Source: Pedosphaera sp. (GTDB lineage: Bacteria > Verrucomicrobiota > Verrucomicrobiia > Limisphaerales > JADLHS01). From it: a stretch of 49,707 bases of DNA. Where the stretch lies: the NCBI GenBank assembly GCA_009695195.1, contig SIBJ01000022.1, positions 1-49,707 of the forward strand. Direction: 5' to 3'. Numbering within the stretch: the first letter of the stretch is position 1; every line of letters starts with the position of its first letter. This document shows positions 10,927 through 23,837 of this stretch, one piece after another. The notes under the pieces are model-generated. The model worked only from the letters and a program-made list of their open reading frames with translations. It searched no databases and was not told the origin of the DNA. Made by a program: the position numbers and the translations under genes.

Positions 10927-12168
10927 ATGAACCTGACCCTTCGCCGATTGCTGGTTTCACTGAGCCTCGCGTTTCTCTTCTTCACCGCGCGCGCCGCAAC
11001 CGCGCCGTCCGTCGCGCCCCGCGACCGCATTTTGATCCTCATCTCGCTCGACGCATTCCGCTGGGACTATCTGCAAAAATTCCCGACGCCAAATCTTAAG
11101 CGCCTCGCCACCGGCGGCGTCCACGCCGAGCGGCTCATCCCGATGTTCCCCACGATGACGTTTCCGAACCACCACACGATCATGACCGGCTGGCGGCCCG
11201 CGCATCACGGCGTCATCCACAACAACATTTACGATCCAGTGACCAAGGGAACTTTCGCGTTCAACAAACCGGAACTGCAAGGCCCGGAGTGGTGGGGCGG
11301 CGAACCGATCTGGGCCACGGCCATCAAACAAGGCCGCCGCGCGGACGTTTTGTTTTGGCCCGGCACCGGCACGCCGATGGCGGGAATCTTGCCGACCGAG
11401 TGGAAACGCTACGACGGCAAACCCGAACCCAACGAAATCGTGGACCTGGGACTGGCCTGGCTCGATCAACCCGCGGAAAAGCGGCCCAGCTTTGTGACGT
11501 TGTATTTTCATCACGTGGATTCCGTCGGCCACAAGCACGGCCCCGATTCGCCCGAGACCGCCGCCTCCGTCGCCTCTGTGGACGAGGCAATGGGTCGGCT
11601 CGTCGCGGGCATCCATCGCCTCAAACTCGATGACATTGCCAACATCGTCATCGTCTCCGATCACGGCATGGCGAACATCAGTCCCGACCGCACCATCGCG
11701 CTCGGTGATTTCGTGGACTTGAAAACCGTGCAGGTGGATTTCTCCGGCGCCCTCGTCGGCCTGCGCCCGCTCGACGGAAACGTGGACGCGCTGTTCAAAG
11801 CCTTCAAAGGGAAGGAAAAACATTTTAAGACCTACCGCGCCGGGAACATGCCGAAGCGATACAACTTCAAGGGAAACCCACGCATCCCGCCCGTCATCGT
11901 GGTCGCCGACGACACCTGGTATCTCAGCAAACGCGCCGCGAACGAGCCGTCCACCCGTGAAATGAACAAAGCCACGCACGGCTTCGATCCGGAGCTTTCC
12001 TCGATGGGCGCGACGCTCATCGCGAACGGTCCTGCCTTCAAACGCGGCGTGACCATCGCGCCGGTGGAAAACGTCCACCTCTACAACCTCCTCTGCGCCA
12101 CGCTCGGCCTCAAACCCGCTCCGAACGACGGCGACAATCGGCTGGTGAAGAAAGTTCTGGCGAAGTAG
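10927..12168 (+). CDS. Ectonucleotide pyrophosphatase/phosphodiesterase (NPP, alkaline phosphatase superfamily)
   Basis: The 413-residue exported protein has an N-terminal signal peptide (MNLTLRRLLVSLSLAFLFFT). The metal and nucleophile motifs of the NPP family are present: ISLDAFRWDY (D42), nucleophile T78 in PTMTFPNHH, HHVDSVGHKHGP, VSDHGM and the late His in KATHGFDPE. Family members hydrolyse nucleotide or phospholipid phosphodiester bonds with two zinc ions in the periplasm or outside the cell; the substrate here is unknown. The start ATG 10927 directly precedes the signal peptide. A decayed copy of the last 25 codons lies downstream at 12461-12535. Confidence 0.9.
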   Translation: MNLTLRRLLVSLSLAFLFFTARAATAPSVAPRDRILILISLDAFRWDYLQKFPTPNLKRLATGGVHAERLIPMFPTMTFPNHHTIMTGWRPAHHGVIHNNIYDPVTKGTFAFNKPELQGPEWWGGEPIWATAIKQGRRADVLFWPGTGTPMAGILPTEWKRYDGKPEPNEIVDLGLAWLDQPAEKRPSFVTLYFHHVDSVGHKHGPDSPETAASVASVDEAMGRLVAGIHRLKLDDIANIVIVSDHGMANISPDRTIALGDFVDLKTVQVDFSGALVGLRPLDGNVDALFKAFKGKEKHFKTYRAGNMPKRYNFKGNPRIPPVIVVADDTWYLSKRAANEPSTREMNKATHGFDPELSSMGATLIANGPAFKRGVTIAPVENVHLYNLLCATLGLKPAPNDGDNRLVKKVLAK

Positions 12169-12170
12169 GC

Positions 12171-12416
12171 TCAGGCCCTGCGTTTGCGGACCCGGTGACG
12201 CGCGTGCCCGTTGAGCGGCGACACGCGCTCAATCAAAATCGCGCTCAGGTGGTGGGGGCGCTCGTGCTTGTCAATGATGATGACAAACGAGCCGCGCGGC
12301 GCGATGGAGATGAAATCCGGATGCGGCACCGCGTAAGTTTCGCCGCCGTTCGTGCGTACTTCGTAAGGCACGAACGGGACCGTGCGGTTAAACTCGCGAA
12401 TGGACTCAATGACCAT
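12171..12416 (-). CDS. Small conserved hypothetical protein
   Basis: The 81-residue product (MVIESIREFNRTVPFVPYEV, then NGGETYAVPHPDFISIAPRG and VIIIDKHERPHHLSAILIER) belongs to a type of short all-beta protein I have seen in Planctomycetota and Verrucomicrobiota, in which a PHPDF core is followed by a regularly spaced strand. No function is known to me. It is convergent with the phosphodiesterase gene, and the two stops are 2 bp apart. It sits between that gene and a decayed copy of its 3' end, so it may have arrived with a duplication. Confidence 0.65.
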   Translation of the reverse strand: MVIESIREFNRTVPFVPYEVRTNGGETYAVPHPDFISIAPRGSFVIIIDKHERPHHLSAILIERVSPLNGHARHRVRKRRA

Positions 12417-12765
12417 GTTGCACCAATAAGGACGTTGGCCCTGGTTATCAAGACCGACCCTGCGCCACCCTCGACCTCAAGCCCGCGCCGAACGCCGGCG
12501 ACCATTGGCTCGTGAAAACGGGGACGGCGAAGTGAGCCAACCGCGAACCACTCGCCGGCCAAGCTAAAGCTTGGACTCCAACGGGCCCGGCTGCACCGGC
12601 ACGCTGAGGGTAAGCCGACGCCAGTCCCTATGTGGGGAACGACTCTGCCTTTGACAGTTACGGCGACCGTTTCTATCGCGCCTTTCTGCCCGGAGCGGTG
12701 CCGTGCGGTGTGGCTCCGTGCGGGGTTGACTCGCAGAATCCCTCCGACTACAACAGCATCAAAGT
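12417..12765. other. Intergenic region with gene remnants
   Basis: This stretch contains the phosphodiesterase 3'-end remnant (12461-12535) and a short repeat around 12560-12600. It also holds an open frame from about 12614 to a stop at 12788-12790 that has amino-acid-like composition (for example GNDSAFDSYGDRFYRAFLPG) but no start codon after its upstream stop at 12611. That frame overlaps the first 25 bp of the next gene and is probably the tail of a lost gene. A longer ATG-initiated frame from 12630 runs into the TIR protein but lacks coding character before about 13060. Confidence 0.5.
12461..12535 (+). pseudogene. Remnant of phosphodiesterase 3' end
   Basis: Twenty-five codons including the stop translate to CATLDLKPAPNAGDHWLVK then TGTAK. 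This closely matches the last residues of the upstream phosphodiesterase (CATLGLKPAPNDGDNRLVK then KVLAK). No similarity is visible further upstream, where the small antisense gene lies. It is either a partial duplication or the surviving tail of a second paralogue. Confidence 0.75.
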
Positions 12766-13068
12766 ATGGACATCACGACTGCCACCCTGATCGGCCTCGC
12801 CATTCTCGCCTTGGTCATCATTGCGTTCTTCGCCGTGTTTCGCGGTCGAGGGAATTTCAGTATCAAGACCAAGTTGGGCGAAGCGAAGGCCGAAGGCGAG
12901 AACCCGCCGCCACCCACGGCCGTGCCCGTTGGCGTGAAGGTCAAAGGCGTGGCCGGACGCGACATTCATGCCCACAGCACCGGGGTGGGTGGCGTGGATG
13001 TGGATGCCAAAGCCAAAGGCGACATCAAGGCTACGCACACACCCGGAGCAGCGCCCCCAAAATCCTAG
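12766..13068 (+). CDS. Single-TM small protein preceding the TIR-STAND gene
   Basis: The 100-residue ORF has an N-terminal membrane helix (TATLIGLAILALVIIAFFAV) and a Pro/Gly/Lys-rich tail with AGRDIHAHSTG. High GC at third positions supports coding. The tail motif GRDI-H recurs just downstream in the frame of the TIR protein (AGRDIIHKHVAQEIHYH). The last codons contain C CCA AAA (13056-13062), an X XXY YYZ pattern one codon before the TAG. A -1 slip there would enter the TIR frame and give a membrane-anchored fusion. So this is either a separate partner protein or the N-terminus of the next gene. No Shine-Dalgarno sequence is clear. Confidence 0.65.
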   Translation: MDITTATLIGLAILALVIIAFFAVFRGRGNFSIKTKLGEAKAEGENPPPPTAVPVGVKVKGVAGRDIHAHSTGVGGVDVDAKAKGDIKATHTPGAAPPKS

Positions 13069-13184
13069 CCTCCGATTCCACCGCAGCATCGGAGGCATTT
13101 TCCGTTGAACACGGGCGGGCCGGGCGCGACATCATTCACAAGCACGTTGCGCAGGAAATCCATTACCATCTTCCGCAGTCACAT

Positions 13185-16100
13185 GTGTCCGGACTTGAAG
13201 TCCCCACAAGCCATTCAGAAGAGCGACCGCGCCGAATCGATGCGGCTGTCCCAAGTCGAGTCAAGTTAGGCGACACGTTTGACCTTTTGCTTCAGGTTAA
13301 AATGCCAGAATCGCCTCCGCTTGGATTGTCGGACTGGCCCTCCAAACTAACGGAACCGGAACGAGTCGAACAGGTTTCTGAGGTAGTACCGCTTTCCTTT
13401 CCCACGTCGCTGGTTGTTGATAGTTTAGATGAGTTTGGCAAGCCGAAGCACCGGCTGCTCCCAACAAAACTCCGCGCAAGCGTTGTCGCGCCAGAGTTCG
13501 ACATCCAAGGTAGTCACGAGAAGCTGCTTGAGGTTCCACCCGAAGGAAACTCGAAAGTCATCTCCTTCTTGCTCACGGCAAAAAAGAGAGGCAACCGCCG
13601 CTTAAACGTGGAGATCTATCGAACGGACGGCGAGTTGGTGGGCACAATTCCAGTCGCGACCAATGTCAACGGAGAAACAACGTTCCACGAGGCGTCGGTT
13701 GCCAGTTTGGTACTGGTGGTCATTGTGGGCGGTGAAAGCCCGACCAAAACTGCGGAAACGATACGCGCTCCTTCTTCGGTGCATGCGGATGAAGGCCGTC
13801 TTTTGGGCGCGCAGTCCTCTCCTTCAGTGACGGATCGTGCGCCAAGATTGCCTGCCTTGAGAAGGAAGCATGTCTTTCTCTCTTACTGTCGCGACAATGC
13901 TGGCGAAGCTGCTGAACTACGTGAAGCGCTCATTGCTGCCGGAGAAGAAGTTTGGTGGGATCAAGACATCCTCCCGGGCCAGGATTTCCGATTTGCCATC
14001 CGCCAAGCCATGAAGGCGAGCTACGCAGTTGTTTTGTGCCTCTCAAGAGAAACCGAGAGACGTATCACGACTGGAATCTATCCAGAAGCTCTCGAGGCGA
14101 TCGGTGCCTATCGTGAATACGCTCCCGGAGCCAACTACCTCATTCCAGTCCGGTTTTCCGAGTGCGAGGTCCCGCCAATTGAGATTGACGCTACCCGCAC
14201 CCTGGATCGTCTTCAGTATCTGGACTTGTTTCCGCCTGAAGTTCTGAAAGCACAAGTCCAGCGGCTGGTGCGAGCTATTAAAGCGACTCCCTTTCACCCG
14301 CAAAGAGAAAGCGGCACCAAAGTCCCTATCGAAATTAAGAGTCACGATTCAGGGCTGGGAGCCGTGGTTGGCGGGGTGCCCAGTCTGAAACAGACCGTCA
14401 GTCCGGGGGCGGTCGTCGCCAAGGAGCTTTCTGCGGGACACGACAACATCATCATTGGAACTTTGATTCAGCAAGCCGCGTCAGCCGTTCACGCTTCTCC
14501 CCTCCACCAGCTTCCCCCGCCGCCCGCCGCCTTCACGGGACGCGACGAAGAACTCGCCGATCTCGAAAAGAAACTCACCACTGACCACGCCGCCGGCGCG
14601 ACCATCTCAGGCAAACAACACGCCGGATTGCAGGGCCTGGGCGGTGTGGGCAAAACCGCGCTGGCCACGGTGCTCGCCCACCGGCTCCAGGACCGTTACC
14701 CGGACGCGCAACTTTACCTGAACCTGCGCGGGGCCGACCCCGACCATCGCCCGCCCGTCACATCCGTCGAGGCGATGCAGACCCTCATCCACGTTTTTCG
14801 GCCCGAAGCCCGGTTGCCGGACTCGCTCGACCAGCTCACTCCCTGGTATCATTCGGTGCTCAACGACGCCGGGCGCGTTTTGCTGTTGCTCGACAACGCC
14901 GCCGATGCCGACCAGGTGCGCCCGCTCCTGCCGCCAGCCAATTGTCTATTGATCGTCACCTCCCGCGCGCAGTTTCAACTGCCGGGCCTGGCTACGCGGA
15001 ACATTGATTGCCTCGCGCCTGCCAAATCCCAGGAACTCCTGCTCAAGCTCTCGGCGCGCTTCTACGGTGTCGCCAAAGAAGCGGCAGAACTTTGCGGCCA
15101 TCTGCCGCTGGCGCTGGAAGTTTTCGCCGGCGCGGTGAATGGCAGGAATCTTTCTTCGGTGCGCGAACTCCTCGACCGCCTGCGCGCGGGGAAGGACAAA
15201 CTCAGCGCCGTGGATGCCACGTTTCAACTCAGCTACGAACTGCTCGCAGATGACCTGCGCGGGTACTGGGTCCGGCTGGCCGTATTTTCCGCCAGTTTCG
15301 ATCTCCCTGCCGCCGCAGCGGTGTGGAGTGTAGGGCTAGACGATGTCGCCCGCGACGTCCTACAAGTATTCGTGAACGCGAGCCTGGTGGAATACAACCA
15401 AAGCAATGGCCGGTTTCGCCTGCACGACTTGGTGCGCCAGTTCTGCGACGGCAAACTCAATGAAGCCCAACGCATCGCCGCCCGGTTGCGTCATGCCCGC
15501 CATTATTGCTCCGTGGGTGCGACGACGGATAAACTCTACCAGCAAGGCGGGGAAAATGTGCGGCTCGGGGTGGAATTATTTGACCGCGAACGAACGCACC
15601 TGGAAGCCGCCTTCGATTGGCTGCAAACCCGGCGCGATCAGGAAACCGCCGCCCTGCTCGTCGAGTTGGTGGACGCAGTAGCTTACACCGGCGGTCTGCG
15701 ATTTCACCCGCGCCAGCGCATCCGGTGGCTGGAAGGCCAACTCGCCGCCGCCAGGATCACCAAGAATCGTGGAGCGGAAGGCGCCGCCCTCGGCAATCTC
15801 GGCAACGCCTACGCCGCCTTGGGCGACGCGCGCAAGGCCATCGAGTTCCACGAGCAGGCGCTGGTCATTGCCCGCGAGATCGGCGACCGGCGCGGGGAAG
15901 GCGCCGCCCTCGGCAATCTCGGCCACGCCTACGCCGCCTTGGGCGACGCGCGCAAGGCCATCGAGTTCCACGAGCAGGCGCTGGTCATTGCCCGCGAGAT
16001 CGGCGACCGGCGCGGGGAAGGCCAAGACCTCGGCAATCTCGGCAGCGCCTACTTCGCCTTGGGCGACGCGCGCAAGGCCATCGAGTTCTACGAGCAGCAG

Positions 16101-16538
16101 TTGGTGATTGGCCGCGAGATCGGCGACCGGCGCGGGGAAGGCACTGCCCTCGGCAATCTCGGCATCGCTTACAGGAACTTGGGCGACACGCGCAAGGCCA
16201 TCGAGTTCTACGAGCAGGCGCTGGTCGTCTTCCGCGAGATCGGCGACCGGCGCGGGGAAGGCAACGCCCTCGGCAATCTCGGCAACGCCTACGCCGCCTT
16301 GGGCGACGCGCGCAAGGCCATCGAGTTCTACGAGCAGCATCGGGACATCGCTCGCGAGATCGGCGACCGGCGCGGGGCAGGCAACGCCTTGTGGAACTCC
16401 GCTCTGGCGTTGGATCAATTGGGCGACCGGGCGCAGGCCATGGTACGCGCCGAGGAGGCACTGCGGATTCGCGAAGCCATCGAAGACCCCAACGCCGCCC
16501 AAGTCCGCGCGCAGTTGGCCAAGTGGCGCGGCCAGTAG
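13185..16538 (+). CDS. TIR / NB-ARC (STAND) / TPR protein, NLR-like
   Basis: Domains in order by position: a beta-rich region of unknown type (about 13260-13740); a TIR domain (13867-14275) with KHVFLSYCRDN, WWDQDILPGQDF and a candidate catalytic Glu in GIYPEALEAI; an NB-ARC NTPase (14520-15230) with P-loop GLGGVGKTALA, kinase-2 RVLLLLDNA and CGHLPLALEVF; a winged-helix segment; and C-terminal TPRs. TIR domains of this type often cleave NAD+ after the STAND module oligomerises, so a role in antiphage or conflict signalling is plausible. The start is uncertain: GTG 13185 is the first ordinary start codon in frame after the preceding ORF, yet coding similarity extends back to about 13062. GC content is lower than the neighbours before 14350, suggesting transfer. 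Confidence 0.82.
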   Translation: MSGLEVPTSHSEERPRRIDAAVPSRVKLGDTFDLLLQVKMPESPPLGLSDWPSKLTEPERVEQVSEVVPLSFPTSLVVDSLDEFGKPKHRLLPTKLRASVVAPEFDIQGSHEKLLEVPPEGNSKVISFLLTAKKRGNRRLNVEIYRTDGELVGTIPVATNVNGETTFHEASVASLVLVVIVGGESPTKTAETIRAPSSVHADEGRLLGAQSSPSVTDRAPRLPALRRKHVFLSYCRDNAGEAAELREALIAAGEEVWWDQDILPGQDFRFAIRQAMKASYAVVLCLSRETERRITTGIYPEALEAIGAYREYAPGANYLIPVRFSECEVPPIEIDATRTLDRLQYLDLFPPEVLKAQVQRLVRAIKATPFHPQRESGTKVPIEIKSHDSGLGAVVGGVPSLKQTVSPGAVVAKELSAGHDNIIIGTLIQQAASAVHASPLHQLPPPPAAFTGRDEELADLEKKLTTDHAAGATISGKQHAGLQGLGGVGKTALATVLAHRLQDRYPDAQLYLNLRGADPDHRPPVTSVEAMQTLIHVFRPEARLPDSLDQLTPWYHSVLNDAGRVLLLLDNAADADQVRPLLPPANCLLIVTSRAQFQLPGLATRNIDCLAPAKSQELLLKLSARFYGVAKEAAELCGHLPLALEVFAGAVNGRNLSSVRELLDRLRAGKDKLSAVDATFQLSYELLADDLRGYWVRLAVFSASFDLPAAAAVWSVGLDDVARDVLQVFVNASLVEYNQSNGRFRLHDLVRQFCDGKLNEAQRIAARLRHARHYCSVGATTDKLYQQGGENVRLGVELFDRERTHLEAAFDWLQTRRDQETAALLVELVDAVAYTGGLRFHPRQRIRWLEGQLAAARITKNRGAEGAALGNLGNAYAALGDARKAIEFHEQALVIAREIGDRRGEGAALGNLGHAYAALGDARKAIEFHEQALVIAREIGDRRGEGQDLGNLGSAYFALGDARKAIEFYEQQLVIGREIGDRRGEGTALGNLGIAYRNLGDTRKAIEFYEQALVVFREIGDRRGEGNALGNLGNAYAALGDARKAIEFYEQHRDIAREIGDRRGAGNALWNSALALDQLGDRAQAMVRAEEALRIREAIEDPNAAQVRAQLAKWRGQ
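15781..16500 (+). repeat. Tandem 120-bp TPR-coding repeats
   Basis: Five near-identical 120-bp units (15781, 15901, 16021, 16141 and 16261) each encode a 40-residue TPR of the form LGNLGNAYAALGDARKAIEF, followed by HEQALVIAREIGDRRGE. A sixth, degenerate unit begins at 16381. Units 1 and 2 differ at only a handful of bases, so the array expanded recently or is kept uniform by conversion. It forms the ligand-sensing end of the STAND protein. Copy number is likely variable between strains. Confidence 0.92.
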
Positions 16539-16951: not shown

Positions 16952-17083
16952 TCACTTCGCAGTCACGACGACGTAATTCTTCTTCCCCTTCCGCAGCAGG
17001 ACGTGTTTGCCGAACAGACAATCGCTCACCGTCACGGCGCGCGTGGCGCTGGGTTCGCGGACGTTGTTGAGGTTCACGCCGCC
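16952..17083 (-). repeat. tyrS 3'-end copy A
   Basis: About 132 bp encode GGVNLNNVREPSATRAVT, then LFGKHVLLRKGKKNYVVVTAK and a TGA stop. This is the same sequence as the C-terminus of the real TyrRS at 19569. The reading frame is intact but has no gene in front: upstream of GGVN the sequence switches to the REP palindrome. It is the copy farthest from tyrS and may be the ancestral gene end displaced by insertions. Confidence 0.88.
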
Positions 17084-17088
17084 AAATC

Positions 17089-17172
17089 GTAGCAGCCGAC
17101 GTGAGGAGGCTCTAACTTCCCTCGCGCGAACGCCGTCCACGAAAGTTTGAGCCTCCTTGCGTCGCCTGCTAC
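17089..17172. repeat. Left REP palindrome flanking the transposase
   Basis: GTAGCAGCCGACGTGAGGAG at 17089 onward pairs with CTCCTTGCGTCGCCTGCTAC ending at 17172, an imperfect palindrome. A similar, better-matched palindrome lies on the other side of the transposase gene (17765-17847). REP-associated transposases recognise such stem-loops. Confidence 0.8.
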
Positions 17173-17180
17173 AAATAGGC

Positions 17181-17762
17181 ATGGACGAACCGGACTGCAA
17201 TCGGGCGTTTTGTCTTCCACGTCTGCCACGCGAGTTTTACCAAGGCGATGCCGTGGTGCATTGGTCGCTTCCGATTTCGCAACGTCGGCGCGGCTGGCTG
17301 GAGGAGCGGTTTCACGCGGCGTTCCGCGAACTGATCCTGCATGCCGCCGCGCGCGAGGGCTTGTTCTGCCCGGCGTATTGCCTGATGCCGGACCATTTGC
17401 ATCTGGTTTGGATGGGGCTGCGTTTGGATTCCGATCAACTCAACGGCATGGCTTTTCTGCGGACGTATCTGGAACCGAAGCTTGCGACGCAGAGATTTCA
17501 GCATCAAGCGCACGATCACGTGCTCAAGGAAGAGGAGCGCCGTCGGAATGCGTTTGCCCGGGTGTGCAATTACATCCTGGAAAACCCGTTGCGGGCGGAG
17601 TTGGTGAAAGCCCCGGTCGAGTGGGCGTTCAGCGGCGCGGTGGTGCCGGGCTATCCGACGTTGCATCCGTTGCAGGACGATTTCTGGCCGAAGTTTTGGA
17701 AGCTTTACGCCAAGGCAAAGGCGCGAGACGCTGGGAATATCAAGCGGCCGCCCATCCGCTGA
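17181..17762 (+). mobile_element. REP-associated tyrosine transposase (RAYT, IS200/IS605-like Y1)
   Basis: The 193-residue protein from ATG 17181 has the HUH motif in YCLMPDHLHLVWMG and the catalytic Tyr in CNYILENPLRAELVK, both in the expected order. Y1 transposases of this family cut single-stranded REP hairpins. Here the gene is bracketed by two such palindromes (17089-17172 and 17765-17847), the arrangement expected of a RAYT with its cognate REPs. It lies between tyrS 3'-end copies A and B and is the only plus-strand gene in that array. The N-terminal eight residues upstream of Met 17181 are in the palindrome and unlikely to be coding. Confidence 0.9.
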
Positions 17763-17764
17763 CC

Positions 17765-17847
17765 GTAGCAGCCGACGTAAGGAGGCTCTAACTTTTCGGA
17801 CGGCTTTTCCGTAAAGAATTTTAGAGCCTCCTCACGTCGGCTGCTAC
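17765..17847. repeat. Right REP palindrome flanking the transposase
   Basis: GTAGCAGCCGACGTAAGGAG at the left end is inverted as CTCCTCACGTCGGCTGCTAC at 17828-17847, with a small inner hairpin between the arms. Its right end abuts tyrS copy B so closely that it supplies the stop codon of that copy's reading frame. Confidence 0.82.
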
Positions 17848-17978
17848 GAAGCGGTGACGACGACGTAATTCTTCTTCCCCTTCCGCAGCAGGACGTGTTT
17901 GCCGAACAGACAATCGTTCACCGTCACGGCGCGGGTGGCGCTGGGTTCGCGGACGTTGTTGAGGTTCACGCCGCCGCC
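17848..17978 (-). repeat. tyrS 3'-end copy B
   Basis: This encodes GGGVNLNNVREPSATRAVT and LFGKHVLLRKGKKNYVVVTA in an intact frame. The last Lys is replaced by Ser, and a TAG from the adjacent REP ends it. It is closest in sequence to copy A: both read CTTCTTCCCCTTCCGCAGCA on the plus strand where native tyrS differs. It separates the transposase from the RelE-like module. Confidence 0.88.
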
Positions 17979-17989
17979 TTGAACCTTGT

Positions 17990-18265
17990 TCACCTTTTGT
18001 AAATGTCGTGCGTGCCGATGGACACCGACCAAACCGTTTCTCCCTCCAGATAAAAGGCCGCTCGCAAATCTCCGGGAATTTCCACCGCGTAGATGGTGTG
18101 GCCGAAATGAGCGGAGAGACGGTGGATTTTGTGCGCCCGGAGGCGCGGATCGAAAGGGTTCTGCTTGAAAATCGAAAAGGCCCGGCGGGCCGTCTGCTGC
18201 TGCTCCCGCGAGAGCTTGCTCCAACTGCGCCAGAAGGATCTGGCCGCGCGGAAGCGATAGCTCAT
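17990..18265 (-). CDS. RelE/HigB-like mRNA interferase toxin
   Basis: The 91-residue basic protein (MSYRFRAARSFWRSWSKLSR, then QNPFDPRLRAHKIHRLSAH, IYAVEIPGDLRAAFYLEGET and SIGTHDIYKR) has the ParE/RelE fold signature, including the final GTHDIY segment typical of YoeB/RelE toxins. It overlaps the antitoxin gene by 4 bp. It should act on ribosome-bound mRNA when the antitoxin is lost. It lies in the tyrS array between copies B and C. Confidence 0.8.
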   Translation of the reverse strand: MSYRFRAARSFWRSWSKLSREQQQTARRAFSIFKQNPFDPRLRAHKIHRLSAHFGHTIYAVEIPGDLRAAFYLEGETVWSVSIGTHDIYKR

Positions 18266-18456
18266 TTGTCACCGGGATACGGCTCGTTCAGGGCCGTGTC
18301 CAAATCCACCACGCGCCCGGCGGCGATGTCCGCCATGCCTTGCTTGAATTCCTCGGGTATCCACGAGTCGTCGTTTTCCACGACGAACTTGGCGACTTTT
18401 GCGCGTTCGGTCGGCGACAGTTCTTTGAATTCTTCGATGACTTGCTGTGCGCTCAT
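18262..18456 (-). CDS. Antitoxin of RelE-like module
   Basis: The 64-residue acidic protein (MSAQQVIEEFKELSPTERAK, then WIPEEFKQGMADIAAGRVVD) starts at ATG 18456 and overlaps the toxin by 4 bp. The last part is the expected toxin-binding tail. Order, size and overlap match the pair at 3637-4103, but the sequences are different enough to be separate families. Confidence 0.75.
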   Translation of the reverse strand: MSAQQVIEEFKELSPTERAKVAKFVVENDDSWIPEEFKQGMADIAAGRVVDLDTALNEPYPGDK

Positions 18457-18495
18457 GGAGTTAATTATGCACTCAAGATTGTTTCGGGCAAGCGG

Positions 18496-18629
18496 TCACT
18501 TCGCCGTCACGACGACGTAATTCTTTTTCCCTTTGCGCAATAAAACGTGTTCACCGGCAGCAAATCGTTCGTCGTCACCGCGCGCGTGGCGCTGGGTTCG
18601 CGGACGTTGTTGAGGTTCACGCCGCCGCC
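18496..18629 (-). repeat. tyrS 3'-end copy C (degenerate)
   Basis: GGGVNLNNVREPSATRAVT is intact, but the following part carries a short deletion. The frame therefore breaks after NDLL, and the KHVLLRKGKKNYVVVTAK part is only recognisable at the nucleotide level. It is the most decayed of the three extra copies, although it is the nearest to tyrS. Confidence 0.85.
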
Positions 18630-18681
18630 AGCCGATTTGGAGTTTTGGTTCCGTCGAATTCCCGCTTGCTTCGCGCGTCGT

Positions 18682-19272
18682 TCAAGCCAGGCCCGCTTCC
18701 TGTCGGGCGCGGAGCAGCAAGTCCTTCACGCCCAGTTCTCCGGCCCAATGTTCCAGATAGTCCCGGTCCAAGGCGCCGGCCTGCACTTTGAGCACACCGA
18801 GCAGATCGCGCCACTGTCGGTCGGAGATTTCTCCACCCTTGCGGTACCAGTCGAGTTTGGCCAGCACCGTGTCCTCGGCGGTTGCGAAATACAACTCCGC
18901 GGGCGTGACCGCGCCGAGGGATTTCTTTTGGCGACGGGAAAACTGCGTCTCCCCGAAGGGACTACGCCAGTTCACAAACACGTCCACCTTGCTCATGGTT
19001 TCGAGGTGGATCAGGTTGAACGAACCTTGATTCTGGATCGCGGCGATGATGGCGGGCGGGTCCGCGTAGAATTCCCCGGCGAGGTTCTTCGCCAACGGTT
19101 CGGCGTGCCGGCTCAACAGACGCGCCACCAGATCGGCATCCACCGTCAGGCGCGGTTCGCCGAACAGGCTGCTGGCCACCGAACCACCGATGAGATAATC
19201 CACCCCCAGCGCGTCGAACGCCCGCACCACGCGGACAATGGCGGCCAGCAATTCCGTCTCGCCCTCATTCAT
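18682..19272 (-). CDS. Nucleotidyltransferase, AbiEii/MenT-type toxin-like
   Basis: The 196-residue protein from ATG 19272 has a nucleotidyltransferase core: GVDYLIGGSVASSLFGEPRL then TVDADLV (the GGS and DxD elements), KVDVFV and the helical EDTVLAKLDWYRKGGE and DRQWRDLLGVLKVQ. This resembles nucleotidyltransferases paired with a small upstream gene in putative type IV-like toxin-antitoxin modules. It overlaps its partner by 8 bp. The frame is open upstream to 19524, but the upstream portion is the partner gene in another frame. Confidence 0.8.
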   Translation of the reverse strand: MNEGETELLAAIVRVVRAFDALGVDYLIGGSVASSLFGEPRLTVDADLVARLLSRHAEPLAKNLAGEFYADPPAIIAAIQNQGSFNLIHLETMSKVDVFVNWRSPFGETQFSRRQKKSLGAVTPAELYFATAEDTVLAKLDWYRKGGEISDRQWRDLLGVLKVQAGALDRDYLEHWAGELGVKDLLLRARQEAGLA

Positions 19273-19519
19273 GATCGGGCAACGGGCCGTAGGCCCTGGC
19301 AGCCAGTTCGGGGCCGAGCCACAAGTCGGCCAGGCGACGCTTGAGACGCGCCGCCGACTCGTTGGGATGGCGTTCCCGCAAGCCGGCGAACGCAAGGAGG
19401 CGACCCGTGCGGTTGGCACTGAGCACCATCCCGAGTTTTCGCGCGGGTGAAGCGTCGCGGAGCAGTTCCAGCAGCACGCGTTCGGCCTCGGGGTGCGTAT
19501 CTTCAGCCAACGTTCGCAT
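19265..19519 (-). CDS. Small partner protein of the nucleotidyltransferase module
   Basis: The 84-residue protein (ERVLLELLRDASPARKLGMV, then RTGRLLAFAGLRERHP and RLKRRLADLWLGPELAARAY) belongs to a helical family commonly found directly upstream of such nucleotidyltransferases. It probably serves as the antitoxin or accessory subunit, which is inference from gene order. It starts 50 bp downstream of the tyrS stop and overlaps the next gene by 8 bp. Confidence 0.72.
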   Translation of the reverse strand: MRTLAEDTHPEAERVLLELLRDASPARKLGMVLSANRTGRLLAFAGLRERHPNESAARLKRRLADLWLGPELAARAYGPLPDHE

Positions 19520-19568
19520 GGCAATAGTTTACCCCGATTGGGTGGCTTTTCATTCCAAAAGTCTGCCG

Positions 19569-20846
19569 TTACTTCGCCGTCACGACGACGTAATTCTTTT
19601 TGCCTTTGCGGAGCAGGACGTGTTTGCCGAAAAGCAAATCGTTCATCGTCACGGCGCGGGTGGCGCTGGGTTCGCGGACGTTGTTGAGGTTCACGCCGCC
19701 GCCTTCGATGTCTTTTCGGGCCTGGCCTTTGGAGGGGCAGAGGCCGGAGTGGACGAGCAATTCCACGAGCGGAATTCCCGCGCCTTCGAGCTTCGCCTTC
19801 CCGATTTCCTTTGTCGGCACTTCGCCAACGACTTCGTTGAAGGTGCTTTCTGAAACACTCTCGAAATTGCTGCTGAACAGGATCAAACTGGCGCTCATCG
19901 CCTCCTGCGTGGCTGCTTCGCCGTGGATCAAGTTAGTCACTTCTCTCGCCAATGCTGTGTGCGCCTCGCGGGCGGCGGGATTTGCGACGTGCTTCGATTC
20001 CAGCGCCGTGACTGCTTCCTGCGAGAGGAATGTGAAGAATTTCAGGTAGCGGATCACGTCGCGGTCGTCGGTGTTGATCCAGAACTGGTAGAAGCGGTAG
20101 ACGCTGGTGCGTTTCGGGTCGAGCCAGATGGCGCCGGCTTCGGTCTTGCCGAACTTCGTGCCGTCGGCGTTGGTGATGAGCGGGAGGGTGAGGCCGAAAA
20201 CGCGTTTACCGAGTTTCTTGCGCGTGAGTTCGATGCCGGCGGTGATGTTACCCCATTGGTCGCTGCCGCCGATTTGCAGTTCGCAGTGGTGGTCGCGCGC
20301 CAGCACGTAAAAGTCGAAAGCTTGTAGCAGCATGTAGCTGAATTCGGTGTAGCTGATGCCGGCTTCGCGGTCTTCCATGCGCGCGCGGACGCTTTCCTTG
20401 GCGACCATCTGGTTGACGGAAAAATGTTTCCCGATGTCGCGCAGGAAATCGAGATACGAAACGTCCGCCGTCCACGAGGCGTTGTCCACGAGCCGCGCCG
20501 GATTTTGTTTCGTGTCGAAATCGAGGAGGCGCGCGAGTTGTTGCCGCACGCTGGCGATATTGCGGTCGAGGACTTCCTTCGTGAGAAGCTGGCGTTCGGC
20601 CGATTTGCCGCTGGGATCGCCGATGCTGCCGGTCGCGCCACCCGCCAGCGCGATGGGGTGGTGGCCGAGCAATTGAAATCGCCGCAGTCCGAGCAGCGGA
20701 ACGAGATTGCCGACGTGCAGGCTGTCCGCAGTGGGATCGAAGCCGCAGTAGAGCGTCGTGGGCGCGGCGAGGCGTTTGGTCAGTTCCACCGTGTCCGTGC
20801 AATCCGCCACCAGGCCGCGCCAGTTCAATTCATCCAGAATGCTCAC
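19569..20846 (-). CDS. tyrS: Tyrosyl-tRNA synthetase
   Basis: The 425-residue enzyme from GTG 20846 (SILDELNWRGLVADCTD...) charges tRNA-Tyr. The class I signature is PTADSLHVGN (HIGH-like), followed by DFYVLARDHHCELQIGGSDQ, and the KMSKS-equivalent is TKFGKTEAG. The C-terminus is an S4-like RNA-binding domain ending in KHVLLRKGKKNYVVVTAK. The frame is open upstream to 21119, but those residues lack family similarity. The last ~130 bp recur three times downstream (18496, 17848 and 16952), each bounded by an inserted gene module. Confidence 0.95.
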   Translation of the reverse strand: MSILDELNWRGLVADCTDTVELTKRLAAPTTLYCGFDPTADSLHVGNLVPLLGLRRFQLLGHHPIALAGGATGSIGDPSGKSAERQLLTKEVLDRNIASVRQQLARLLDFDTKQNPARLVDNASWTADVSYLDFLRDIGKHFSVNQMVAKESVRARMEDREAGISYTEFSYMLLQAFDFYVLARDHHCELQIGGSDQWGNITAGIELTRKKLGKRVFGLTLPLITNADGTKFGKTEAGAIWLDPKRTSVYRFYQFWINTDDRDVIRYLKFFTFLSQEAVTALESKHVANPAAREAHTALAREVTNLIHGEAATQEAMSASLILFSSNFESVSESTFNEVVGEVPTKEIGKAKLEGAGIPLVELLVHSGLCPSKGQARKDIEGGGVNLNNVREPSATRAVTMNDLLFGKHVLLRKGKKNYVVVTAK

Positions 20847-21390: not shown

Positions 21391-21588
21391 GGGTGCGATT
21401 AAAGGCGGGTGAGGGTGAGCGGGTGCTGGCGGTATTTTTGGACTGCGGTGGCAAGTCGGACGCGACACCGCTTTCGAGCGCACGGGGCGGGTGGCTCATT
21501 GCCATGGCCGTCGTCGGTGCCAAAGCGGTGTCGCGTCCGACTTGCCACCGCAGTCCATAATGCCCTCACCCGTTCTTAATCACACCCC
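21391..21588. mobile_element. MITE-like element, copy 1
   Basis: This 198-bp palindromic element begins GGGTGCGATTAAAGGCGGGT and ends AATCACACCCC, with internal arms containing CTGCGGTGGCAAGTCGGACG and its inverse. An inverted copy is at 23562-23759, and a fragment of the same end is at 49559-49584. It has no coding capacity of its own, although the upstream DUF2182 frame reads through it. Confidence 0.8.
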
Positions 21589-21713
21589 GGCGGGTCGGTG
21601 AGCGGGGAAAAACCTTGCGCGGCCCGCGCCGGCAGACTAATTTCCGCACCGCTTCGCCTCGGTGCTTCGCCGGATTGAATCCACGGGAGAGGATCGAATC
21701 GTCGGCGATTTGT

Positions 21714-21788
21714 GGGTTGGTAGCTCAGTTGGTAGAGCAGCCCCGATCCGATCGGGGTTGGTCCGGGGTTCGAGTCCCCGCAATGGCA
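21714..21788 (+). pseudogene. Chimeric tRNA-like sequence (anticodon arm CCG)
   Basis: The D-arm GCTCAGTTGGTAGAGC, the anticodon stem CCCCG/CGGGG with loop ATCCGAT (anticodon CCG, would be Arg) and the T-arm CCGGGGTTCGAGTCCCCG are all tRNA-like. However, the 5' acceptor strand GGGTTGG is that of the tRNA-Lys 80 bp downstream and does not pair with the 3' strand CAATGGC. That 3' strand would pair perfectly with GCCATTG. No CCA follows. It looks like a recombinant between two tRNA genes and is probably not functional. Confidence 0.65.
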
Positions 21789-23494: not shown

Positions 23495-23837
23495 AACTCG
23501 ATTCCTTTCCGGCTCACAGCCAAGCAAATTTTCGCGACATTGCAACCCCAGTCTTGCACCCGGGGTGTGATTAAAAACGGGTGAGGGCATTATGGACTGC
23601 GGTGGCAAGTCGGACGCGACACCGCTTTGGCCCCGACGACGGCGAGGGCAATGAGCAACCCGCCCCGTTCGCTCGAAAGCGGTGTCGCGTCCGACTTGCC
23701 ACCGCAGTCCAAAAATACCGCCAGCACCCTCTCACCCGCACCCGCCTTTAATCGCACCCTTGCACCCGTCCGAAGCGGAGTTTTGCTTGTGCCCGTTCGC
23801 CGTTCGTCTATAACGCCGCAAAGCCAGTCCATACGTT
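23495..23837. other. Divergent intergenic region containing MITE copy 2
   Basis: These 343 bp lie between the M48 protease and the dicarboxylate symporter. Apart from the MITE-like element (23562-23759) I see no gene or RNA. Either promoter would have to sit in the ~75 bp on each side of the element. Confidence 0.6.
23562..23759. mobile_element. MITE-like element, copy 2 (inverted)
   Basis: It begins GGGGTGTGATTAAAAACGGG and ends CCTTTAATCGCACCC, the inverse of copy 1. Internal arms carry the same CTGCGGTGGCAAGTCGGACG block twice in opposite orientation. The two copies bracket the tRNA-Lys, GIY-YIG, MerR-like and M48 genes and could recombine to invert them. Confidence 0.8.

Follow-up and report, generated by a model that had tools for sequence, protein, structure and literature searches.

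Organization of the tyrS locus

The window analysed here, a stretch of 49,707 nucleotides from Pedosphaera sp. of the order Limisphaerales (GenBank assembly GCA_009695195.1, contig SIBJ01000022.1), contains an intact tyrosyl-tRNA synthetase gene, tyrS, which is followed downstream by three additional copies of its last ~135 bp, all in the same orientation as tyrS. Small gene modules lie between these copies. The source genome, referred to as G000, is available as a 4.46-Mb draft assembly of 162 contigs with a completeness of 90.8%, and the window is its contig C61. Other genomes are designated by G numbers and loci by L numbers; G001 is a relative of the same genus. The features of the array are listed below (ORF, open reading frame; aa, amino acids; REP, repetitive extragenic palindrome).

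19569..20846 (-): tyrS, intact tyrosyl-tRNA synthetase gene (TIGR00234, E 8.8e-123)
19569..19705 (-): C1, present 3' end of tyrS, likely acquired, closest to G252, G004 and G244
19265..19519 (-): 84-aa ORF of the first module, no convincing family match
18682..19272 (-): 196-aa ORF, nucleotidyltransferase-like by eye, no convincing family match
18496..18635 (-): C2, displaced tyrS end, frameshifted, recognized by similarity to the tyrS end
18262..18456 (-): 64-aa ORF, antitoxin predicted from position only, overlapping the toxin gene
17990..18265 (-): 91-aa YafQ/RelE-like toxin with 328 homologues
17844..17981 (-): C3, displaced tyrS end of native type, closest to G001
17798..17849 (no strand): REP-type inverted-repeat arm that overlaps C3 at its end, arms 83% complementary
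17157..17762 (+): REP-associated tyrosine transposase (RAYT; NF047646, Y1_Tnp)
17087..17138 (no strand): REP-type inverted-repeat arm abutting C4, from the repeat scan
16952..17086 (-): C4, distal displaced tyrS end, grouping with C3 and G001

Read from tyrS, the modules are a nucleotidyltransferase-like pair, a YafQ/RelE-like toxin-antitoxin (TA) pair and a RAYT, with tyrS ends between them. The RAYT, which is enclosed by 52-bp inverted REP arms, matches NF047646 with an E value of 2.1e-13 and 50 bits, under the model cut-off of 80, and Y1_Tnp with an E value of 0.0094. The 91-aa and 64-aa pair has no Pfam or NCBIfam match at E 0.01; among the 120 listed homologues of the 91-aa protein, several carry the JGI name YafQ or RelE. 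The 196-aa and 84-aa pair reads as nucleotidyltransferase-like from its residues. Seven module proteins gave no match in PADLOC. An earlier, sequence-only reading of this DNA had described such an array of tyrS ends, which is confirmed here; of its module labels, the RAYT is recovered below the cut-off of the model, the RelE-like toxin is supported by the names of homologues, and the nucleotidyltransferase is left without a convincing family match.

Two of the displaced copies match the tyrS end with E values of 1.0e-20 and 1.9e-19, and C2, which lies closest to tyrS among the displaced copies, carries a frameshift and aligns in two parts (E 5.6e-8 and 5.9e-4). The four ends show no difference over 41 bp starting at GGCGGCGTG, and their pairwise identity over the entire tail is 85-91%. 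At their upstream border, GGCGGC(GGC)GTG, the three displaced copies break off sharply and agree within 3 bp, and the homology stops at or near the stop codon.

Origin of the tyrS ends

The tail identity of C1 is highest to other genera (G252, 0.912; G004, 0.906; G244, 0.905), whereas the identity to the same-genus G001 is 0.855 for C1 and 0.906 for C3. In the tree of the tails, C3 pairs with G001 (support 71) and C4 then joins them (93), with C2 on a separate branch of its own; additionally, C3 and G001 have in common a REP-like sequence at the stop codon. Judged by these comparisons, the end on the intact gene looks foreign in type, and the displaced C3 and C4 ends look native in type.

The tyrS tail finds a match in 288 of the 320 genomes of the order that were queried, and more than one match in only 9 of these, G000 included; in several of the 9, the matches are on separate contigs only. 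An old tandem duplication with identical modules everywhere, which the sequence-only reading had set out as its alternative, is ruled out by this count. Among 112 tyrS loci outside the window that were searched locally (some genomes are represented twice), a displaced tail is present downstream of tyrS in G062, G028, G208 and G216 (E ≤1e-9), and weak tail remnants are present in G217 (E 0.002) and at L117 (E 0.003). As that reading had anticipated, the modules at related loci are different ones: a contact-dependent inhibition (CDI) immunity gene lies immediately 3' of tyrS in G208 (PF07262, E 1.4e-31), and between tyrS and the displaced tail, G062 has a 284-aa ORF of unknown kind, G216 a decayed repeat protein, and G028 3.2 kb with several ORFs. 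The borders of the displaced tails range over ~100 bp from genome to genome. The proposed fixed start at the codon for GGGVN thus holds within G000 and fails in the other genomes, and exchange of modules is supported despite this partial variation of the borders.

The tyrosyl-tRNA synthetases (TyrRS) of G216, G062, G007 and G010b are chimeric: identity to the nearest relative in the set is 86.7-94.0% for the body and only 43.8-69.5% for the last ~100 residues, and the break falls within the conserved core at about residue 320. In G216 and G062, a native-type tail or its remnant lies 1.3-1.5 kb downstream of the foreign-ended tyrS. Foreign ends on intact genes, together with displaced native ends, indicate that the incoming DNA brought its own gene end, and both the array (C1 against C3 and C4) and these two chimeras bear out the suggestion that modules arrive with a replacement end and push the old end downstream.

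Several other arrangements were observed. A displaced tyrS tail is located 20 kb from tyrS on the opposite strand in G208 (L083:4484-4591), and another is on a different contig from tyrS in G018 (L037:5477-5581). Two tyrS genes are present in the single draft genome G010 (L043 and L044), which may be a mixed bin. One of their products, G010a, has a foreign linker and a native-type end over the last 40 residues, a pattern that could be the scar of a module lost through recombination between tails.

Gene-end arrays elsewhere in the genome

To survey gene ends, the last or first 60 residues of each ORF were compared by script with the 3 kb downstream or upstream. End-only duplications were found for 11 of 598 ORFs in 813 kb of G000, two of which share arrays with others, and for none of the 750 ORFs in 50 loci from other phyla (979 kb, mostly Bacillota and Enterobacterales) using the same script. 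The tyrS loci of the order yielded 6 hits among 427 ORFs, three of them weak. By the script together with a DNA repeat scan, seven arrays with ten modules were accepted in G000.

tyrS, 3' end: three modules
phosphodiesterase gene (in the window), 3' end: 81-aa ORF
PfkB kinase gene: overlapping gene pair of unknown function
TadA-like deaminase gene: VapBC
DUF58 gene, 5' head: ParE/antitoxin pair and RAYT (two modules)
carB C-terminal half, 5' head: DUF433/DUF5615
pdxH, 5' head: 437-aa ORF

Four of the ten modules are TA or putative TA pairs, two are RAYTs and four are others; DUF433/DUF5615 is counted with the former, as we take it to be a putative TA pair. The matches include VapC (TIGR00028, E 5.1e-42), ParE (PF05016, E 7.2e-7) with its antitoxin (PF09720, E 4.1e-17), DUF433 (E 1.9e-17) with DUF5615 (E 9.4e-15), and a Y1 transposase (E 7.2e-19). 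The arrays at six other genes rule out a phenomenon confined to tyrS. A tRNA-island-like design special to tyrS, as proposed in the sequence-only reading, is likewise not upheld, in that the same layout occurs at the 5' ends of DUF58, carB and pdxH and at other 3' ends. A PF00589 tyrosine integrase is present on none of the six array contigs, including that of the window, and six are present on other contigs of G000 (serine recombinases were not searched). The nine arms have no clear common motif; the best 8-mer is found in 7 of 9, which was equalled by 1 of 20 shuffled sets.

In the stretches of G001 that were compared, the deaminase, carB, pdxH and DUF58 sites have one copy each, and the sequence outside the G000 arrays is not alignable with them. 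In G002, a homologue of the kinase module lies immediately 3' of the kinase gene, without a displaced tail. The two ends of the kinase array were considered as evidence of donor origin and dropped, since their comparison is indecisive. At the edge of a G001 contig (C1019:4-141), a sequence that matches the kinase tail at 57% is a paralogue or a remnant. The array layout is also present in independently assembled genomes, for example on the 148.8-kb contig L103. At L238, two identical 54-bp copies (14386-14439 and 15271-15324), which are 832 bp apart, resemble in our reading the terminal part of a type I restriction specificity gene (...ALEALKKSLLHQAFTGEL); the intact gene is not seen in the part shown.

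The moxR-DUF58 hotspot and the TA family of the window

Hotspots throughout the order are the head of DUF58 and the tail of moxR. Truncated DUF58 heads are present in the gap between moxR and DUF58 in G000 (two), G003, G005, G007 and G008 (two; this genome also has a paralogous gene elsewhere). Displaced moxR tails accompany a MazE-type antitoxin and PIN toxin in G004, a RAYT in G005, and DUF433/DUF5615 in G010, and a moxR array is found within a 698-kb contig of G225. The moxR tail matches 299 of 313 genomes searched, and when up to 1.5 kb downstream was viewed in the best 30 of these, a truncated head was observed in 9 (two weak), an extra moxR tail in 3, and either in 11.

The arms and the modules diverge to different extents. 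In G000 (family f1) and in G209 and G222 (f43), a displaced DUF58 head meets a ParE gene at the same point; these arms are 91.5-96.3% identical over 82 nt, and the ParE proteins are just 31-47% identical. Between the moxR-tail cassettes of G004 and G011, the identity is 96% for the arm, 87% for the moxR body and 68% for the module. Additionally, KilA-N modules adjoin head copies of two DUF58 paralogues, and the displaced DUF58 heads of G007, G008 (two), G011 and G085 continue into a common REP-like palindrome.

Within the order, 35 of 313 genomes contain the family of the 91-aa toxin. Of 30 loci whose flanks were checked, the locus in the window included, 6 have repeats on both sides: besides the tyrS array, the family lies between moxR tails in G252, is flanked by a 26-bp dapL tail in G211 and by the tail of an unnamed gene in G087, and, in G310, a relative has a tRNA-Arg gene on one side and a duplicate of the 3' end of that gene on the other (L360:739-785 and 2563-2609); the remaining locus has an 18-bp repeat. 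A tblastx search of the flanks of the family gave noise only.

Proposed mechanism and alternative explanations

Taken together, these results argue that the tyrS array is probably a stack of acquired modules, each of which arrived with a copy of the tyrS end and entered by RecA-type homologous recombination, leaving the old end displaced. In such a process, the incoming gene end (the arm, 26-228 bp in the cases seen) would pair with the resident end, and the second junction would come either from a small circular donor, for which a single crossover duplicates the arm, or from an illegitimate join. The host gene would be whole after every step, so the process could be repeated and arrays could build up. 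The arms on either side of a module may also recombine, which would release it. A dedicated integrase would be unnecessary, and the over-representation of TA pairs would reflect retention, because such pairs are hard to lose once gained. It is likely that small modules such as TA pairs move from genome to genome by bringing along a copied host gene end, and RecA-type recombination via this end is the simplest process.

A direct repeat of the homology is present on both sides of the insert, as in the Campbell (single-crossover) scheme, and G000 has ComEC and DprA genes, as do E. coli and many bacteria. In searches for exact or near matches only, the tyrS tail was absent from 72,556 plasmid records, and the patterns of the tyrS core and the DUF58 head were absent from viral contigs. 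A laboratory precedent is described in PMC3240628: small plasmids with homology to the end of lacZ gave a duplicated end in 56 of 60 Lac- clones of E. coli, and the 14 duplications sequenced were 109-950 bp long and were ascribed to a single crossover of circles.

Several observations weigh against this explanation. The starts of the three displaced tyrS ends agree within 3 bp, which is unexpected under free recombination, and in several genomes the DUF58 heads stop at recurrent positions. REP-like palindromes abut several junctions and are unaccounted for by a recombination model. In G216, the foreign stretch of TyrRS starts ~65 residues ahead of the start of the displaced tail, which indicates that a simple single crossover is insufficient there. 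Classical homology-facilitated illegitimate recombination, as described in the same paper (PMC3240628), gives deletions rather than duplications. No flanking repeat is found at 24 of the 30 TA-family loci, four of the 11 hits in G000 are doubtful (L245, L246, L254 and L256), and the comparison of the two kinase-array ends does not settle their donor origin. Scans of 400 kb each in G005 and G083 gave 2 of 307 and 2 of 281 ORFs, all weak, which shows that array density differs among genomes and that the density in G000 is not general.

The agreement of the tyrS borders, the recurrent stops of the DUF58 heads, and the TA-family relative at a duplicated tRNA-Arg 3' end, which is the usual integrase layout, would fit a dedicated site-specific recombinase encoded elsewhere that inserts cassettes at the ends of genes, in the way that tyrosine integrases use tRNA 3' ends. 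Such an enzyme is nevertheless unlikely, given that the array contigs lack the PF00589 integrases found elsewhere in the genome, that the arms are 5' heads and 3' tails of unrelated genes without a clear motif, and that the tyrS borders differ between genomes. An even less probable driver is single-strand transposition near gene ends by RAYTs or REP palindromes. RAYT modules occur in the tyrS, DUF58 and moxR arrays, REP inverted repeats abut C3 and C4, and the DUF58 heads named above enter a common palindrome; however, no RAYT is recognized in eight of the ten G000 modules, the foreign gene ends are left unexplained, and we know of no IS200/IS605-type transposition that duplicates 60-200 bp of the target.

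Local duplication, in which template switching or a staggered break copies the gene end at the insertion of a module and no end is brought in, has a small chance of being correct. It is consistent with the kinase, DUF58 and pdxH copies of G000, which are 94-98% alike, but not with the ends from different lineages within one tyrS array or with the foreign C-termini beside native tails in G216 and G062, and for tyrS it is already disfavoured by these comparisons. An assembly artefact of the metagenome bin is hardly credible: G000 is a draft of many contigs and the contigs of some relatives end within such repeats, yet the copies differ by up to 15%, lie inside long contigs and enclose distinct modules, and the layout recurs in independent assemblies (L103 and the 698-kb contig of G225).

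If acquisition by RecA-type recombination of gene ends is extended beyond tyrS, the arrays may tentatively be regarded as an integrase-free, TA-rich class of cassettes in Limisphaerales, whose address is a portable gene terminus (a 3' tail or 5' head) that recombines with the same end elsewhere, leaves the gene whole, and stacks at preferred genes of an essential or conserved kind (tyrS, moxR and DUF58).

Other features of the window

A second gene in the window has a duplicated 3' end.

10927..12168 (+): type I phosphodiesterase gene (PF01663, E 3.2e-92)
12171..12416 (-): 81-aa ORF separating the phosphodiesterase gene from its displaced 3' end, no family match
12461..12535 (+): displaced 3' end of the phosphodiesterase gene (last 24 codons), from a repeat match

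The displaced end has 71% identity (E 1.8e-7 and 2.1e-7). Between it and the distal tyrS tail lies a TIR-NB-ARC-TPR gene (12630-16538, +; TIR_2, E 3.7e-16; TPR_12, E 1.5e-38), which may be another acquired module. A REP-like palindromic repeat with 39-bp inverted arms is present at 21436-21560 and 23590-23741, and the short ORF translations at the former are nearly repeated 2.1 kb further on. A tRNA at 21705-21788 (+), for which ARAGORN gives no clear anticodon, adjoins a tRNA-Lys gene, and the two have long repeats in common.

Relation to known systems and implications

Minimal mobile elements of Neisseria are small variable gene sets between conserved genes; they encode no recombinase and are exchanged through homologous recombination. 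Similarly, no PF00589 recombinase gene was found on the array contigs here, and the content differs between genomes at the tyrS, DUF58 and moxR sites. Exchange via whole conserved flanking genes by transformation would fit the chimeric TyrRS; however, the Neisseria elements have whole-gene flanks and swapped content, whereas the modules here stack with duplicated gene ends between them. Integrase islands at the 3' ends of genes or tRNAs, such as the staphylococcal cassette chromosome at rlmH, restore the target with the incoming end, leave the old end at the far border, and can form arrays. The restored gene and displaced old end are found here as well, in contrast with the absence of a PF00589 integrase from the array contigs, the arms of 26-228 bp from many genes and from 5' or 3' ends, and the modules of one or two genes. 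Integron cassettes each carry attC and depend on IntI, whereas the array repeats here are coding gene ends.

The elements of Neisseria are named in PMC1538595. The dif modules of Acinetobacter are likewise described as small, often TA pairs, and located between recombination sites, but these are short XerC/XerD sites, whereas the flanking repeats seen here are gene ends. In PMC3240628, the integration of small circles in E. coli is likewise RecA-dependent, places foreign DNA at a gene end and duplicates that end over 109-950 bp; it is a laboratory by-product, and natural arrays, a TA link or recurrent gene ends across an order are not part of that account. Homology-facilitated illegitimate recombination, described there too (PMC3240628), shares one homologous and one illegitimate junction without an integrase, but usually deletes about as much as is inserted, whereas the ends here are duplicated. 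Partial similarity is thus found with minimal mobile elements, with integrase islands, with dif modules and with crossover duplications. In the open-licence literature, no description of gene-end duplications flanking TA modules was found, and a new class of cassette is possible.

How chromosomal TA pairs move without transposons or integrases is, to our knowledge, an open question. If true, gene-end arms would provide an answer that leaves a searchable trace, the displaced gene terminus beside a module, which can be counted in any genome by a simple script. They would also explain hotspots at essential genes without gene loss, the chimeric ends of tRNA synthetases, and the accumulation of small defence-like genes at fixed places.

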